From positions 1 through 7,290 of the forward strand of contig CAMLLJ010000145.1 of NCBI GenBank assembly GCA_946480845.1: 7,290 nucleotides of DNA. Reading direction: 5' to 3'. Source of the DNA: an uncultured Gemmatimonadota bacterium. Its GTDB lineage: Bacteria; Gemmatimonadota; Gemmatimonadetes; Gemmatimonadales; GWC2-71-9. A program made the translations under genes and the position numbers. This document shows, one piece after another, positions 1 through 4,844 of this stretch; within the stretch, counting starts at the first letter, position 1; the number at the start of each line of letters is the position of its first letter. The notes beneath the pieces are model-generated. The model had not been told where the DNA came from and made no database searches. It saw only the letters and a list, made by a program, of their open reading frames with translations.

Positions 1-958
1 GGAAGCGCACGATGCGCAGCTTGATCACGAAGTCGTCGATGATCTCCTGCGCCTGCTCCTCGCCGAGGCGGCCGGCCGCCATGTCGCGCTCGAAGTAGAC
101 GTCGAGGAAGGTCGAGCAGCGGCCGAGCGACATGGCGGCGCCGTTCTGCTCCTTGACCGCCGCGAGGTAGGCGAAGTACAGCCACTGCACCGCCTCGCGC
201 GCGGTGGCCGCCGGGCCGGAGATGTCGTAGCCGTAGCTGGCCGCCATCTCCTTGAGCTCCTGGAGGGCCCGGATCTGCTCGGCCAGCTCCTCGCGGTCGC
301 GGATGACGCCCTCGCTCGACGCCTCGTTGTCGAGCGCCGCCTTCTCCTGCTGCTTGGCCGCGATCAGCCGGTCGGCGCCGTAGAGCGGCACGCGGCGGTA
401 GTCGCCGATGATGCGGCCGCGCCCGTAGGCGTCCGGCAGGCCGGTGAGGATGTGCGAGCTGCGGCAGCGGCGGACGTCGGCGGTGTAGGCGTCGAACACC
501 CCGTCGTTGTGCGTCTTGCGGTACTTGGTGAAGGTCTCGACCACCTGCGGGTCGGGCGTGTAGCCGTAGGCCTCGAGCGACGAGAGCACCATGCGCAGGC
601 CGCCGTTCGGCATGATCGCGCGCTTGAGCGGCGCGTCGGTCTGGAGCCCGACGATGATCTCGTTCTCGCGGTCGATGTAGCCCGGCGCGTGCGCCGTGAT
701 CGAGGAGGGGATCTGCGAGATGGCGAGGACGCCCTTGTGCCGCTCCTCGACGAACAGCTCGGTCAGCATGCCCCAGATGCGCTTGGTCCGCGCGGTGGCG
801 GGCGCCAGGAAGCCGGCGTCGCCCTCGTAGGGCGTGTAGTTCAGCTGGATGAAGGCGCGGACGTCGATCGTCTTCTGCCACAGCGCGCCCTGGAATCCTT
901 CCCAGGGCGAGGCGTGGTCCGCGGGCCCGCTGGTGGCCATCTCCGCCGTCGTGCTCAT
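1..958 (-). CDS. pflB: Formate acetyltransferase (pyruvate formate-lyase), N-terminal part
   Basis: Glycyl-radical enzyme of the cytoplasm that converts pyruvate and CoA to acetyl-CoA and formate in anaerobic fermentation. The window holds the first 319 codons of a family usually near 760 residues; the reading frame runs off the left edge. Segments I recognise as matching E. coli PflB in order are WEGF (19-22), NYTPYEGD (40-47), the IVGLQTDAPLKR block (about 102-113), KYRKTHNDGVFDAYT (145-159), GLPDAYGRGRIIGDYRR (173-189), which includes an arginine known to bind pyruvate, YGYDISGPA (242-250) and QNGAAMSLGR (271-280). The catalytic cysteine pair and the C-terminal glycyl-radical loop lie outside, so an active enzyme is inferred. 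The ATG has an AGGAG six bases upstream (965-969). A DosR-like promoter lies about 124 nt upstream of the start, and the start codon overlaps the stop of a small leader frame. The activating enzyme PflA is not in view. Confidence 0.96.
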   Translation of the reverse strand, partial: MSTTAEMATSGPADHASPWEGFQGALWQKTIDVRAFIQLNYTPYEGDAGFLAPATARTKRIWGMLTELFVEERHKGVLAISQIPSSITAHAPGYIDRENEIIVGLQTDAPLKRAIMPNGGLRMVLSSLEAYGYTPDPQVVETFTKYRKTHNDGVFDAYTADVRRCRSSHILTGLPDAYGRGRIIGDYRRVPLYGADRLIAAKQQEKAALDNEASSEGVIRDREELAEQIRALQELKEMAASYGYDISGPAATAREAVQWLYFAYLAAVKEQNGAAMSLGRCSTFLDVYFERDMAAGRLGEEQAQEIIDDFVIKLRIVRF

Positions 959-1081: not shown

Positions 1082-1133
1082 TAGATGGACAATGCCAGCG
1101 CCGTCACAGCCGGTAAATTGGACCTTGGTCCCA
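1082..1133 (-). promoter_or_regulatory. DosR-like box and promoter for pflB
   Basis: The minus strand reads TGGGACCAAGGTCCAAT at 1133-1117, an imperfect dyad GGAC-N4-GTCC. It differs at two of 17 positions from two identical boxes at 4238-4222 and 4825-4809. Downstream, CATTGT (1094-1089) lies at the same distance from the box centre as CATCGT and CATGTT at the other two sites and fits a -10 hexamer (A2, T3 and T6 match). If so, the box is centred near -43.5 and transcription starts at the A at 1082. This is a typical activator position overlapping the -35 region. The half-site agrees with the known Mycobacterium DosR/DevR box (GGGACT...AGTCCC). The regulator itself is not in the window. Confidence 0.65.
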
Positions 1134-1227
1134 TCGCACCGGGGGGGCCCGGGCCGGCCCCGTCGTGGCCGGCGGGGAACGGCTGCCATGCGGGTGGCAC
1201 CGGCCGGCTGCTGGTGCGGAGAGGGGG
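1134..1227. other. Non-coding stretch between the ackA 3' end and the pflB promoter
   Basis: No gene is supported here. The stretch is extremely G+C-rich with runs of G. It contains a perfect 7-bp inverted repeat with a 7-nt loop (GCCGGCC at 1153-1159 with GGCCGGC at 1167-1173) and a weaker TGCCA/TGGCA pair (about 1184-1199). Either could help end transcription from ackA or insulate the pflB promoter, but neither has a T-tract on the minus strand. In sequence this composition such stems arise easily by chance. Confidence 0.35.
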
Positions 1228-1277
1228 GCGCGCCCTGGAAGTCTCCCCAGGGCGAGGGGTGCTCAGGCCGTGCTCCC
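1228..1277 (-). pseudogene. Apparent relic of a pflB start fused to the ackA 3' end
   Basis: The last bases of ackA and the bases just after it match the start region of intact pflB. First comes the ribosome-binding-site and start block, GGAGCACGG then TGAGCAC, with the pflB ATG replaced by CTG. Next comes a block that in one frame reads HPSPWGDFQGAP against HASPWEGFQGAL of PflB. The 37-nt segment between the blocks in pflB is missing and could have been lost by recombination between the short GAGCAC/GACCAC repeats. Beyond 1228 the similarity stops. This is best read as a decayed copy of the pflB 5' end that once overlapped ackA; a chance match of two collinear blocks is unlikely but not excluded. 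Confidence 0.5.
1231..1254 (-). terminator. Candidate hairpin after ackA
   Basis: Perfect 8-bp stem CGCCCTGG/CCAGGGCG with an 8-nt loop, beginning eight bases after the ackA stop. It is followed on the minus strand by a C-rich, T-poor stretch, so it is not a canonical intrinsic terminator. It could stabilise the 3' end of the message or be a weak terminator. The same stem exists inside the pflB coding region, which shows that it was inherited from pflB-like sequence and did not evolve here as a terminator. Confidence 0.35.
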
Positions 1278-2486
1278 GGGGGCCGCGTCCGCGAGCGCGG
1301 GCTGGAGCAGCCCCAGCAGGTCGCCCGTGTGGCGGGCGATCATCAGCTCCTCGTTGGTGGGGATCACCCAGGCGGAGACGCGGCTGCCCGGCTGCGAGAT
1401 CTGCGGGCCGTGGCCGTCGTTGGCCGCCCCGTCCAGCTCGACGCCCAGCCACGCCGACGCCGCGCAGATGCGGTGCCGGATCTCGGCCGAGCGCTCGCCG
1501 ATGCCCGCCGTGAAGACCAGCGCGTCCACCCCGCCGAGGACGGCCGCGAGCGCGCCGATCTGCTTCGCCGCCTGGTAGACGAAGTAGTCCACCGCCTGCC
1601 GCGCGGCGGGCTCGGGATTGCCGACCAGGTCGCGCATGTCGTTGCTGACCCCCGAGAGGCCGAGCAGGCCCGACTTCTTGTAGAGGAGGGCCTCGACCTC
1701 CGCGGGCGACATGCCGAGCGCCTGGAAGAGGTGGAGGACCACGCCCGGGTCGAGGGTGCCGGGGCGCGTGCCCATGCACAGACCGTCGAGCGCGGTGAAG
1801 CCCATGGAGCAGTCGACGCTCTGCCGCCCCCGCAGGGCGCATAGGCTGGCGCCGCTGCCGAGGTGCGCGACGATGACGCGCCGTTCGGCGATCTCCGGCG
1901 CCACCGCGGGGAGCGTCGCGGCGATGTACTCGTAGGACAGGCCGTGGAACCCGTAGCGCTGGACGCCGGCGGCGCGGATCTCCCTGGGCAGCGGCACGAG
2001 CTGCGCGACCGGCGGCTGGCCGCGGTGGAAGCCGGTGTCGAAGCAGGCCACCTGCGGCACGCCCGGCAGCCGCTCGGCCACGGCCTCGATGGCGCCCACG
2101 TTGTGGGGCTGGTGGAGCGGCGCGAGCGGCACCAGCGCACGCAGGTCGGCGATCACCTGGGGGGTGACGACGCACGGCCTGGCGTACTGCGCGCCGCCGT
2201 GCACGACGCGGTGGCCGACGCCGGCGACCGCCGTGCCGCCGTAGCGGTCGCGCAGCCAGCCGGCCAGCACGTCGAGGGCGGCGCGTACGTCGCGCACCCT
2301 GGCGGTGAGCTCCTGATCGGCAACGAGGGCGCCGGCCCCGTCGCGTGCGGCGAGGCGCGGCGCCGTCCCGATGCCTTCCACCCCGCCGCGCACGGCGAGC
2401 TGCCATCCCCCGCCTTCCGGACGCCCGAAGACGCAGAACTTGAGGCTCGACGAGCCGGCATTGAGGACCAGCGCGTGGTGGCTCAT
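1263..2486 (-). CDS. ackA: Acetate kinase
   Basis: Cytoplasmic kinase of the ASKHA fold that interconverts acetyl phosphate plus ADP with acetate plus ATP, the ATP-yielding end of acetate fermentation. The 407 residues fit the family length (about 400). Motifs in order are LVLNAGSSSLK (6-16, with catalytic N9), GHRVVHGG (91-98, R93), PLHQPHN (123-129, H125), ACFDTGFH (147-154, D150), YGFHGLSY (178-185, H181), HLGSGAS (208-214), MGTRPGTLDPG (238-248, R241), FTAGIGE (325-331) and PTNEELMIAR (376-385, the metal-site glutamate). All the known active-site positions look intact. The start lies 25 nt after the sdaA stop with only a weak Shine-Dalgarno, so the gene is probably co-transcribed with sdaA. 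The last codons and the stop coincide with a pflB-like block. No phosphotransacetylase gene is nearby in the window. Confidence 0.97.
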   Translation of the reverse strand: MSHHALVLNAGSSSLKFCVFGRPEGGGWQLAVRGGVEGIGTAPRLAARDGAGALVADQELTARVRDVRAALDVLAGWLRDRYGGTAVAGVGHRVVHGGAQYARPCVVTPQVIADLRALVPLAPLHQPHNVGAIEAVAERLPGVPQVACFDTGFHRGQPPVAQLVPLPREIRAAGVQRYGFHGLSYEYIAATLPAVAPEIAERRVIVAHLGSGASLCALRGRQSVDCSMGFTALDGLCMGTRPGTLDPGVVLHLFQALGMSPAEVEALLYKKSGLLGLSGVSNDMRDLVGNPEPAARQAVDYFVYQAAKQIGALAAVLGGVDALVFTAGIGERSAEIRHRICAASAWLGVELDGAANDGHGPQISQPGSRVSAWVIPTNEELMIARHTGDLLGLLQPALADAAPGSTA

Positions 2487-2511
2487 CGGCCTGCAGGTCC
2501 CCGGACGAGGG

Positions 2512-4110
2512 TCAGCAGAGCGCCAGCGAGACGGCGAGGCCGCCCTCGGAGGTCTCCTTGTACTTGGAGTTCATCTCCTTGGCGGTGAGCGCCATGGCGT
2601 CCACCGTGGTGTCGAAGTCGACGCGGCGGTGGGCCGGGATCTCGTTGCTGGCGATCATGAAGCCGGTCCAGGCCTTGACCGCGCCGTAGGCGCAGCGCTC
2701 GATGCACGGCACCTGCACGAAGCCCGCGACCGGGTCGCAGGTCATGCCGAGGTGGTGCTCCAGCGCCGATTCCGCGGCGTTCGCGATCACCTGCTGCGGG
2801 AAGTCGTGCGCCTGCGCGATGAGCGCCGCCGCCATCGCCGAGGCCACGCCGATCTCGGCCTGGCAGCCGCCCTCGGCGCCGGCGAGCGTCGCATTGTGCT
2901 TGCAGAGGTAGCCGATCGCCGCGGCGGCGAGCAGGCCGGCGCGGATCTTCTCCTGCGGCAGCTTGCGGCCGCCCTCGCCGAGCGCGTAGACGATCGCCGG
3001 CAGCACGCCCGCCGAGCCGCCGGTCGGGGCGGTCACCACCAGGTGGCCGCGGGCGTTCTCCTCGGAGCCCGCGAGCGCGTAGGCGGCGACCACGCCGACG
3101 CCGCGCTGCTTCTCGTACTCGTCGTCCATGGCGCGCTTGTAGACGTCGCCGGCCTTGGTCTTGAGCTTGATCGGCCCGGGCAGCGTGGCGGACGGCGCGT
3201 TGAGGCCCGACTTCACGATGTTGACCATGGCGGTGGTGATCTTGTCGAGGAACGCGTTGATCTCCGCCTCGCTCTTGCCGGAGACCGCGACCTCGTTGGC
3301 CATCACCACCTGCGCCACGCTGAGGTCGTTCTTCTCCGCGTGTGCCTGCAGCTCCCGCATCACCGAATAGGGGTACTTCGGCGCGCCCTTCTTGGGCGGC
3401 TGGTAGCCCTTCCACTCGATGAAGCCGCCGCCGACCGAGTAGTACTCCTGCTCGAGGAGCACCTTGTCGCCGGCCAACAGCTTGCAGGTCATGGTGTTGG
3501 GGTGGGGGAAGTCGCCCTTGGTCGCGTCGTAGACGATGTCCTTGAGCGAGGCGTTGAAGGTGGCGCTCCCCAGCTTGACCGGGAAGGTCTGGTCGGGCTT
3601 GGCGGCCAGCTCGTCGAGGAACGCCGGGTCGATGGTCGCCGGCTCCTTGCCGATGATGCCGGCGAGCGCCGCGCGCTCGGTGCCGTGCCCCTGGCCGGTC
3701 GCGCTCAGGCTGCCGAACAGGTGGACTTTCAGGGCCGTCGCCTTGGCGAGCTGGTCGGCGGGCAGCTTGGTGCAGCGCTGGTAGAAGTCGTAGGTGATGC
3801 GCATCGGGCCGATGGTGTGGGAGCTCGAGGGGCCGGGGCCGACCTTGTAGAACTCCTCGAGGGTGGTCATCACCGGCCCCTTGGTGCTCTTCTTGACGTC
3901 GAGGGCCTGCGAGACGTTGCTCTTGGGGGGGGTGGCGGAGGCCGCCTTCTTCGTGGTCTCCTCCGGCGAGGCGGGAGGGGCGCCCGCGAGCACGGCGACG
4001 GCGCCGATCATCGCGCTGCGCATGAGGAAGGCGCGGCGGTCGACCCCCTGCGGGGCCTCGGGCAGCTCGGTTGGAAGTGGGACGTCCGGGTCATCTGTGA
4101 ACGTGGTCAT
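2512..4110 (-). CDS. sdaA: Iron-sulfur L-serine dehydratase with a Tat-like N-terminal extension
   Basis: Deaminates L-serine to pyruvate and ammonia using a [4Fe-4S] cluster. The 532 residues are an 80-residue extension plus 452 residues that align end to end with E. coli SdaA (454). Motifs: VGPGPSSSHTIGPM (90-103), LFGSLSATGQGHGT (131-144), YYSVGGGF (223-230) and VVTAPTGGSAG (358-368). Cluster cysteines fit C416 (GGCQAEIGVA), C458 (MTCDPVAG) and C469 (VPCIER); the final residue, C532, matches the C-terminal Cys tail that occupies the cluster in the Legionella enzyme. The extension has VDRRAFLMR (23-31), a hydrophobic run to about residue 43, then a Lys/Ala/Thr-rich linker, which is Tat-signal architecture; no clean AxA cleavage site is visible. 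AGGGAG seven bases before this ATG (4118-4123) supports the long start. M81 (3868-3870) is the usual SdaA start and has AAGGGG six bases upstream, so a second, cytoplasmic form is possible. Promoter at 4187-4238; ackA follows. Confidence 0.93.
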   Translation of the reverse strand: MTTFTDDPDVPLPTELPEAPQGVDRRAFLMRSAMIGAVAVLAGAPPASPEETTKKAASATPPKSNVSQALDVKKSTKGPVMTTLEEFYKVGPGPSSSHTIGPMRITYDFYQRCTKLPADQLAKATALKVHLFGSLSATGQGHGTERAALAGIIGKEPATIDPAFLDELAAKPDQTFPVKLGSATFNASLKDIVYDATKGDFPHPNTMTCKLLAGDKVLLEQEYYSVGGGFIEWKGYQPPKKGAPKYPYSVMRELQAHAEKNDLSVAQVVMANEVAVSGKSEAEINAFLDKITTAMVNIVKSGLNAPSATLPGPIKLKTKAGDVYKRAMDDEYEKQRGVGVVAAYALAGSEENARGHLVVTAPTGGSAGVLPAIVYALGEGGRKLPQEKIRAGLLAAAAIGYLCKHNATLAGAEGGCQAEIGVASAMAAALIAQAHDFPQQVIANAAESALEHHLGMTCDPVAGFVQVPCIERCAYGAVKAWTGFMIASNEIPAHRRVDFDTTVDAMALTAKEMNSKYKETSEGGLAVSLALC

Positions 4111-4186
4111 GGCCTATCTCCCTCAAGGAGTGAATGGCGAGGGATCGCCGTTGCGGGGTATGGCGGCCGGCACGGTACGGTGCTCC

Positions 4187-4238
4187 TAGGTGGACGATGC
4201 CAGGGAGCCGCGCACGGGTAAATCGGACTTTGGTCCCA
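4187..4238 (-). promoter_or_regulatory. DosR-like box and promoter for sdaA-ackA
   Basis: The minus strand reads TGGGACCAAAGTCCGAT at 4238-4222, identical to the DUF2780 box and 15/17 to the pflB box. A -10-like CATCGT lies at 4199-4194, giving a predicted start at the A at 4187 and a leader of about 77 nt. Similarity to the pflB promoter extends well beyond the box: the ATTTACC that follows it and the block CTGGCAT-GTCCA-CTA around the -10 are shared, while the roughly 12 bases between are not. This pattern suggests conserved promoter parts with a free spacer. The site lies just after the DUF2780 stop, so sdaA has its own promoter. Confidence 0.65.
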
Positions 4239-4245
4239 CAAGGGC

Positions 4246-4734
4246 TCACTGGGACTTCAAAGCGCCGGCGAGGAGATTCCCGACGTCCGCGCCGCCCGCT
4301 TTGCTCACGTAGTTGGTGAGGACCGGCACGGCCTTCGCCACCATCTCCGGCTTGAGCCCCAGCTTCTTGAACGCATCCGTGGCGCTCGCCAGGCCGCCGA
4401 TGTCGCCGACGCTGCCGAGGCCGCCGGCGCCGGACAGCGCGCCCAGAACGCCGCCGGCTCCGGCGGTGGCGGCGGGAGCTGCCTTGAGGAGGCCGTCCAT
4501 GCCGGGCACGGCGCCGGCGACCTTGGTCCACTCCTCCGCCTTCAGGCGGGACTTCGCGAGGCCGAACAGGGCGCCCGCCGCGCCTTCTGCCTGCTCGGGC
4601 GTGCTGCCGATCTCCTTCGCCAGCGCACCCACGAGCTCCGGGTTGGCGGGCGGGGTCGGCGTCTGGGCCGGCAGCACGGCAGCCAGCAACGCTGCTGCGA
4701 TCGCGAGGACGGACGAGATCTGCTGGGTCTTCAT
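4246..4734 (-). CDS. Secreted DUF2780 (VcgC/VcgE-like) protein
   Basis: Encodes 162 residues of a family whose function I do not know. A hydrophobic signal peptide spans about residues 1-23 (MKTQQISSVLAIAAALLAAV, then LPA), so export through the inner membrane is expected. The mature part shows the DUF2780 pattern: ELVGALAKEIGSTPEQAEGAAGALFGLAK (about 33-61), then AVPGMDGLLKAAP, a Gly/Ala-rich low-complexity middle (about 86-113), and the C-terminal block LGLKPEMVAKAVPVLTNYV with GNLLAGALK. The start used here has AGGAGG six bases upstream (4741-4746). A longer frame to 4785 is rejected because its ATG would sit in the predicted -10 element. The gene is transcribed from its own DosR-like promoter and is not obviously part of the serine pathway. 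Shared control with fermentation enzymes suggests a role in low-oxygen or stress physiology, which is inference. Confidence 0.85.
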   Translation of the reverse strand: MKTQQISSVLAIAAALLAAVLPAQTPTPPANPELVGALAKEIGSTPEQAEGAAGALFGLAKSRLKAEEWTKVAGAVPGMDGLLKAAPAATAGAGGVLGALSGAGGLGSVGDIGGLASATDAFKKLGLKPEMVAKAVPVLTNYVSKAGGADVGNLLAGALKSQ

Positions 4735-4761
4735 CGGCTTCCTCCTCGCGCCGGACATCAC

Positions 4762-4775
4762 GAGCGCCGGCGCTC
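4762..4775 (-). other. Perfect palindrome at the start of the predicted DUF2780 leader
   Basis: GAGCGCCGGCGCTC is a perfect 14-bp palindrome spanning the predicted transcription start (4774), 27 bases before the start codon. It could be a 5' mRNA stem or an operator. Its position parallels the stem-loop at the 5' end of the pflB leader. Confidence 0.4.
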
Positions 4776-4825
4776 TCCTGAACATGAGCGGAGAAGCGGA
4801 TGCTGTCTATCGGACTTTGGTCCCA
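4774..4825 (-). promoter_or_regulatory. DosR-like box and promoter for the DUF2780 gene
   Basis: The box at 4825-4809 reads TGGGACCAAAGTCCGAT on the minus strand, identical over 17 bases to the sdaA box. CATGTT (4786-4781) lies at the same distance from the box centre as the -10-like hexamers of the other two promoters, which predicts a start at the A at 4774 and a 40-nt leader. Outside the box and the -10 the sequence does not resemble the other two, so the shared spacing is independent support for function. Confidence 0.62.
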
Positions 4826-4844
4826 CGGCAGGGCACCGCCGTGG
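4823..4844. repeat. Inverted repeat between the lipoprotein gene and the DUF2780 promoter
   Basis: CCACGGC (4823-4829) and GCCGTGG (4838-4844) form a perfect 7-bp stem with an 8-nt loop, overlapping the outer edge of the DosR-like box. An alternative stem CCGCCG/CGGCGG (4836-4841 with 4846-4851) overlaps it. It could be a terminator for the upstream lipoprotein gene, but no T-tract follows on the minus strand. Confidence 0.3.

Follow-up and report, generated by a model that had tools for sequence, protein, structure and literature searches.

A short inverted repeat, here called the box, stands three times in a 7,290-nucleotide stretch of DNA from an uncultured Gemmatimonadota bacterium (contig CAMLLJ010000145.1; this whole stretch is the window), and the locus raises the question of which protein reads it and to what effect. 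The original prediction was that the three copies are DosR-like sites of one regulon, at which a NarL/FixJ-family regulator activates pflB, sdaA-ackA and a DUF2780 gene in a genome that is not actinobacterial. The genome is indeed non-actinobacterial. Comparison with relatives makes it very probable that the three boxes are operators of a single two-component response regulator of the StyR/FixJ type and that they lie in activator promoters. The box was compared in relatives of the window genes, mostly metagenome-assembled genomes (MAGs), and the evidence on the regulator likewise comes from relatives.

The window contains three copies of the 17-mer TGGGACCAARGTCCRAT with no mismatches, each on the minus strand and at the coordinates and in the orientation first reported; the chance expectation is 0.01 copies (200 shuffles). 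A search allowing up to three mismatches found no further site in the window. As had been predicted, every box precedes a gene that is read from the same strand: pfl (start 958), sdaA-ackA (start 4110) or the DUF2780 gene. An element of the form CATNNT, which occurs at 0.0018 per position of the window (71% G+C), follows the 18-bp box at exactly 22 bp at all three sites, which bears out the identical spacing originally claimed. The transcription starts proposed at the same time (1082, 4187 and 4774) would be compatible with this geometry. The DUF2780 gene should begin at the ATG at 4734, since the start of the longer open reading frame (4785) falls within the -10 element. The box in the window is one form of the palindrome ATTGGACCAARGTCCAAT, the consensus of 41 sites; the complete palindrome is ATTGGAC-N4-GTCCAAT.

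The distance from box to -10 element is also constant outside the window. All distinct strict sites in the available DNA were collected; 41 of the 61 GGACCAARGTCC sites passed a flank rule, and their strand was set by the central AA. A [TC]ANNNT element was found downstream at a spacing of 22 bp in 26 of the 41 sites and at 23 bp in another five. Any other offset between 12 and 35 was occupied in at most three sites, and any offset on the opposite strand in at most one. These 41 sites include the three in the window as well as orthologous sites, and hence are not independent. The phase of the -10 element is conserved across strict sites, the sequence of the spacer is not. An operator at the -35 region and at a fixed distance from the -10 element is the class II layout that had been predicted, and an activator-type promoter with the operator centred near -44 from the inferred start site is well supported, activation itself being predicted from this layout.

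A repressor, be it this regulator or some other dimeric protein, would also find the box in a suitable place, as a protein bound at the -35 position could block the polymerase. Activated promoters, however, usually have this very layout, with one box in a constant helical phase, a poor -35 and a weak -10 element. StyR, a regulator of styrene breakdown, can act as a repressor from a second site further upstream, but it activates from its main site at about -40, according to the accessible part of one report (PMC2442086). We consider repression through these boxes improbable.

The regulator itself was sought through the distribution of the box, with the backward version of each box pattern as a control. 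The starting sample was 80 loci of sdaA relatives, and the 44 genomes behind these loci were scanned for GGGACYWWRGTCCNA. The pattern was absent from 33 of them. G026, a Vicinamibacteria MAG, had ten matches at nine distinct places; one contig carried five of the nine, and the control was absent from this genome. The same pattern was present in 19 of 193 genomes belonging to the class of G026. A longer pattern, GGGACCAARGTCCRAT, was found in 5 of 396 sampled Acidobacteriota genomes, and G026 alone accounted for seven matches; there was no control among the matches listed. The genes of the box cluster in G026 encode a DUF2780 protein, DUF1254/1214 and DUF2092 proteins, a HAD protein, two MASE1 histidine kinases, and a response regulator with receiver and GerE domains; in G431, boxes precede DUF3300 and a DUF3302 gene. 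The scan of relatives that had been suggested thus yielded box clusters and a linked response regulator; conservation of the box at sdaA, discussed below, did not hold.

In Vicinamibacteria the box adjoins a gene for a FixJ/StyR-type response regulator. These box-linked regulators contain Response_reg and GerE domains, and the kinases beside them have PAS, GAF or MASE1 domains, of which GAF alone neither shows nor excludes a haem sensor of the DosS/DosT kind. Relatives of the G026 response regulator are near boxes in further genomes. To avoid circularity, the search was then run by regulator. At an E-value up to 1e-45, regulators were found in 22 of the 193 genomes in the class of G026, at 31 places, and the DNA was examined around 30 of these (all except G092:C262). 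The 30 places represent 22 genomes, several of them closely related.

The sequence at the start of the recognition helix tracks the box. Where the helix begins with EK[TN], a box was present at 11 of 11 places, ten with the strict GGACC and one (G218) with a single substitution, GAGACCAAGGTCC. The distance between regulator and box was 11–129 bp in nine of these, 492 bp at G169:C388, where a stop interrupts the regulator gene, and 2.3 kb in G026. The strict box was found at none of the 19 places with other helices, five of which were examined over only about 3 kb. One of these 19, the regulator of G211 with the helix TDAT, has a variant box, ATTAGACCAAGGTCTAAT, in which both halves are changed symmetrically, and a second DAT/AGACC pair is present in G214, a genome found through the RNA described below. 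Fisher's test of helix against strict box gives 4e-7, uncorrected for kinship, a value that overstates independence, given the shared and related genomes noted above. Six of the 11 EK regulators (G213 and G218–G222) were reached by the regulator with no box previously noticed there, while the genomes of the other five had been noticed for their boxes. Three neighbourhoods outside the 30, picked for their boxes (G431, G358 and G513), have EKT helices too. A single regulon under a regulator of the NarL/FixJ superfamily, as first proposed, is supported by these relatives. A related box for regulators with EIT or EAT helices was also sought, but perfect 8-bp arms at 14 loci gave no shared candidate.

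It is also conceivable that the boxes serve another transcription factor, and that the adjoining regulator is linked to them by gene order only. Such a factor would account for G539, G610 and G718, where a strict box is present and an EKT regulator was sought without success (in G539, picked for its box, the best regulator has another helix), and for G211, which has GGACC boxes on another contig (L130) though the sole regulator found is of the DAT kind. The pairing of EKT with GGACC and of DAT with AGACC (two genomes), together with the lack of boxes near other helices, makes this quite unlikely.

The same genomes count against the StyR/FixJ-type regulator as the reader of the box, and so do several other findings. 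The -10 elements in the window (CATNNT) are poor. The backward control matched more genomes than the short pattern did, 16 vs 11 of the 44 and 29 vs 19 of the 193; because of this, single matches to the short pattern are uninformative and clusters alone count. The box is not a conserved feature of sdaA, as none of the 20 GGACNNNNGTCC sites in the 80 sdaA loci (1.16 Mb; pfl and ackA elsewhere were not searched) is GGACCAARGTCC. DUF2780 was likewise rejected as a conserved target: a relative was found in only 2 of 26 genomes chosen for regulator or box (G026 and G169), the copy in G169 showed no box, and the box nearest to the G026 gene sits behind it and points away. Finally, the identity of the regulator and its kinase is drawn from relatives and extended to the window genome.

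In one group of genomes the box seems to have an RNA as its target. The box, or a variant of it in G211, G214 and G218, is just behind the regulator gene and faces a conserved stretch of ca. 200 nucleotides in G200, G211, G213, G214 and G216–G222. No shared reading frame was seen in this stretch. The consensus fold is closed by a stem of 16 pairs and contains further hairpins, with modest covariation (3 of 47 pairs changed on both sides). A model built from ten copies matched 12 of the 193 genomes of the class: the ten source genomes, G214 (E-value 1e-48) and, weakly, G190 (5e-5), where there was neither box nor regulator in the 3.2 kb available. There are 11 strong copies in the 193 genomes, while the model had no match in the window (E-value up to 1) and none in G026 (0.001). 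The promoter of the RNA is the only GGACCAARGTCCAA in the whole genome in G200, G213, G216, G217, G219, G220 and G222; G221 has one more and G211 has two, on another contig, with no control matches in that search. G218 lacks GGACCAARGTCCAA because of its substitution, and the looser site GGGACTAAGGTCCAAT is also present in G200. A search of Rfam 15 with cmscan gave no matches at E-values up to 0.5 in five loci (L149, L189, L192, L150 and L196), and a 6S RNA identity, suspected by eye, was dropped on that result. From these comparisons the ca. 200-nucleotide structured RNA of this Vicinamibacteria clade is apparently undescribed.

Two side observations concern these loci. The GAGUG and CACUC loops of the RNA could pair. 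In G211, a DAT regulator accompanies an AGACC box at the RNA (L194), no second regulator was found at an E-value of 1e-45, and the MAG may be mixed.

Boxes are also found in proteobacteria. On Paraburkholderia plasmids the box is ATTGGACCAARGTCCAAT or ATAGGACCAAAGTCCAAT, followed at 22–23 bp by TATTCT, TAGGCT, TAGACT or TAATCT. The surroundings include DUF3300 and DUF2950 genes, a region before ornithine decarboxylase and a cation:proton antiporter, and a lactate dehydrogenase region. Four of the seven plasmid records searched had a box and none had the control, those four having been preselected by likeness to the box region. In P. phenoliruptrix the EKT regulator (BUPH_RS30445 in strain BR3459a) and the boxes are on the same plasmid; no EKT regulator was found on the other three box plasmids within the stretches examined. 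Eight further regulator loci were drawn from 431 plasmid records with a match. The one with an EKT helix (strain PREW-6R) has boxes directly behind the gene, and the seven with other helices have no box. DUF3300 on proteobacterial plasmids was rejected as a target of the box: in six loci examined, from 181 records with a match, one had a box nearby (in Paraburkholderia phenoliruptrix, where it precedes a hypothetical gene upstream of DUF3300) and the other five had no GGACNNNNGTCC.

In the class of G007, which we take to be Gammaproteobacteria in the GTDB sense, TNGGACCAARGTCCAAT was found in 2 of 274 genomes and the control in one. Both genomes (L278 and L279) have a perfect box with a -10-like hexamer at 22 bp, one of them before a DUF2092-like gene, and no regulator was found in either at an E-value of 1e-40. 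The low-oxygen locus of Burkholderia cenocepacia was rejected as a home of the box, since a 3.2-Mb B. cenocepacia record contains no TNGGACCAARGTCCNA. A term search of the accessible part of a B. cenocepacia start-site paper (PMC4603805) gave no GGTCC, GGACC or 'palindrom'.

The mechanism that these comparisons suggest for the StyR/FixJ-type regulator is as follows. A partner histidine kinase, with sensor parts of the PAS, GAF or MASE1 type, would phosphorylate it, and a dimer would bind the inverted repeat (AT)TGGAC-N4-GTCC(AAT), centred about 44 bp upstream of the transcription start and adjoining the -35 region. The bound regulator would bring sigma-70 RNA polymerase to a weak promoter whose -10 element is exactly 22 bp from the box. 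The pfl, sdaA-ackA and DUF2780 genes would thus be switched on together, and pyruvate and serine would be converted to formate, acetate and ATP. Binding and activation are inferred, as are a fermentative or low-oxygen signal and the occurrence of the regulator in the window genome; low oxygen as the signal is a guess from pfl and acetate kinase alone.

We lean slightly towards a broader proposal, in which an undescribed two-component regulon is common to Acidobacteriota and Burkholderiales, and the residues before the helix threonine set the half-site (EK for GGAC, DA for AGAC, and EV for the AAAC of StyR). Within one clade of Vicinamibacteria, the only strict box of the regulator in the whole genome, or nearly the only one, would drive the new RNA beside the regulator's own gene, while in the lineage of the window the same regulator would have directly taken over pfl, sdaA-ackA and DUF2780. 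No published account of such a regulon was found by the literal box or by combinations of DUF families, in a search that covered few subscription papers. The proposal would supply a candidate regulator, operator and promoter rule for the fermentation genes of the window and for the DUF3300, DUF3302, DUF2950, DUF2092 and DUF3604 genes near boxes in relatives, in bacteria represented here chiefly by MAGs. It would also be a natural test case for the way in which a single helix position in FixJ-like proteins selects DNA half-sites, and the unclassified structured RNA is a possible output of a two-component system.

The features of the window and the copies of the RNA are collected in the table. 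Several of the genes have further points of interest. The N-terminal extension of sdaA (2512–4110) contains a twin-arginine-like stretch and a hydrophobic segment, which is unusual for a cytoplasmic iron-sulphur enzyme; a twin-arginine-like motif is in two of the three parsed N-termini of relatives, a sample too small for use. The order sdaA, ackA, pfl is found together, without the box, in L001, L002, L003, L006, L007, L008 and L011, from MAGs titled as different phyla. Single-sequence folds give the leaders of pfl (957–1083) and sdaA (4110–4188) a similar look: both have three hairpins, one of GCACCG, one of GGCGA/TCGCC and another close to the ribosome site. Among the 120 best relatives of the window DUF2780 protein, two are named Vicinamibacterales, which would suggest, with no more than moderate confidence, a place for the window in or near Vicinamibacteria (Acidobacteriota).

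Table. Coordinates of genes and putative promoter elements in the window, and of the RNA copies in loci from related genomes
Feature	Position	Strand	Remarks
pfl, formate C-acetyltransferase, 5' part only, cut at window edge	1..958	-	PF02901; TIGR01255 partial, under its whole-protein cut-off
-10-like element CATTGT (pfl promoter)	1089..1094	-	22 bp from box
-35-like TTTACC (pfl promoter)		-	shares one base with box end
Regulator box before pfl, ATGGGACCAAGGTCCAAT	1117..1134	-	identical 18-mer also in G026, G216, G217
ackA, acetate/propionate kinase, second gene behind 4222 box	1263..2486	-	PF00871; TIGR00016 above cut-off
sdaA, one-chain L-serine ammonia-lyase, N-terminal extension	2512..4110	-	PF03313 and PF03315; TIGR00720 above cut-off
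-10-like element CATCGT (sdaA-ackA promoter)	4194..4199	-	22 bp from box
Regulator box before sdaA-ackA, GTGGGACCAAAGTCCGAT	4222..4239	-	exact-site search and geometry
DUF2780 (VcgC/VcgE) protein, probably exported	4246..4734	-	PF11075, E-value 1.8e-31; homologue in G026 box cluster
-10-like element CATGTT (DUF2780 promoter)	4781..4786	-	22 bp from box
Regulator box before DUF2780 gene, GTGGGACCAAAGTCCGAT	4809..4826	-	exact-site search and geometry
RNA copy, L148	9199-9397		
RNA copy, L149	97-293		
RNA copy, L189	277-474		
RNA copy, L190	8533-8732		
RNA copy, L191	8496-8692		
RNA copy, L192	526-724		
RNA copy, L193	9329-9524		
RNA copy, L194	8522-8718		
RNA copy, L196	4519-4713		
RNA copy, L150	2544-2734		
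RNA copy, L265			

Among proteins of solved structure, the closest to both regulators tested is 1yio (E-values 1e-50 and 1e-56), which we take to be StyR (the record title is response regulatory protein), and the second best is FixJ (5xso; 6e-40 and 5e-46). FixJ is also the best NCBIfam model (NF006900) for all three regulators tested, with 193.7, 201.2 and 217.7 bits; none reaches the cut-off of 255 bits for FixJ proper. With receiver and GerE domains and a best match to StyR or FixJ, the box-linked proteins of relatives belong to the StyR/FixJ subfamily.

A true DosR/DevR orthologue from actinobacteria, running a hypoxia regulon here, would fit the fermentation targets, which suit low oxygen, and its operator has the same AC-N4-GT geometry with GG before it. 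The DNA contacts of DosR are Lys179, Lys182 and Asn183 according to the accessible part of one paper (PMC4082495). In our alignment the first two of these seem to have lysine counterparts in the EKT regulators. Kinship is against it: DevR scored 9.7e-17 with one regulator, far behind StyR and FixJ, and was below the list at 1e-12 for the other. The consensus, ATTGGAC...GTCCAAT, differs as well, and the symmetric GGGACT-WW-AGTCCC was not found, the consensus being ATTGGACCAARGTCCAAT with GGG in one half only of the window sites. We therefore judge an orthologue of DosR to be very unlikely. That the boxes are due to chance or a mobile repeat is most improbable, for although single short-pattern matches outside clusters are no commoner than the backward control, and the long pattern in the class of G007 barely exceeds it, the window has three copies against the small expectation given above, there was no control match where the longer pattern or the box-bearing genomes were searched, and the -10 phase is conserved despite a spacer that is not.

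The name DosR-like thus describes the appearance of the box and not the ancestry of its regulator. The mycobacterial dormancy system has a similar-looking box with the same half-site spacing and possibly shares low-oxygen targets, but its regulator is distant in sequence, the outer half-site is another one, and its targets are not those of the window. AC-N4-GT is common to the box, to StyR-like operators and to those of DosR (taking the DosR box as in the original prediction). The lysine of EKT would fall at the first contact lysine of DosR and may read the GG before AC, so that the box would look DosR-like without common ancestry at that level.

The rhizobial oxygen system of FixJ has kinases that differ from those beside the box regulators, and the FixJ operator appears to differ from the box. 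TdiR, for anaerobic toluene degradation in Azoarcus, is also of the NarL/FixJ family, and its proposed palindrome GGTGTTCGCACC is upstream of the -35 region, but the half-site is unrelated in sequence to that of the box (PMC5874301, accessible part). The closest likeness is to StyR, TodT and TmoT of the styrene and toluene two-component systems of Pseudomonas, which also have receiver and GerE domains and an inverted repeat with the AC-N4-GT core. StyR-like proteins may recognise ATAAACN4GTTTAT, with Lys175, Val176 and His179 as proposed DNA contacts, in the accessible part of the same paper (PMC5874301); this operator is not matched here, where the consensus is ATTGGACN4GTCCAAT. The recognition helix has AEVT in the aligned 1yio and EKT in the box regulators, and where StyR, TodT and TmoT act on aromatic breakdown, the box regulators would act on fermentation genes, DUF proteins and an RNA.

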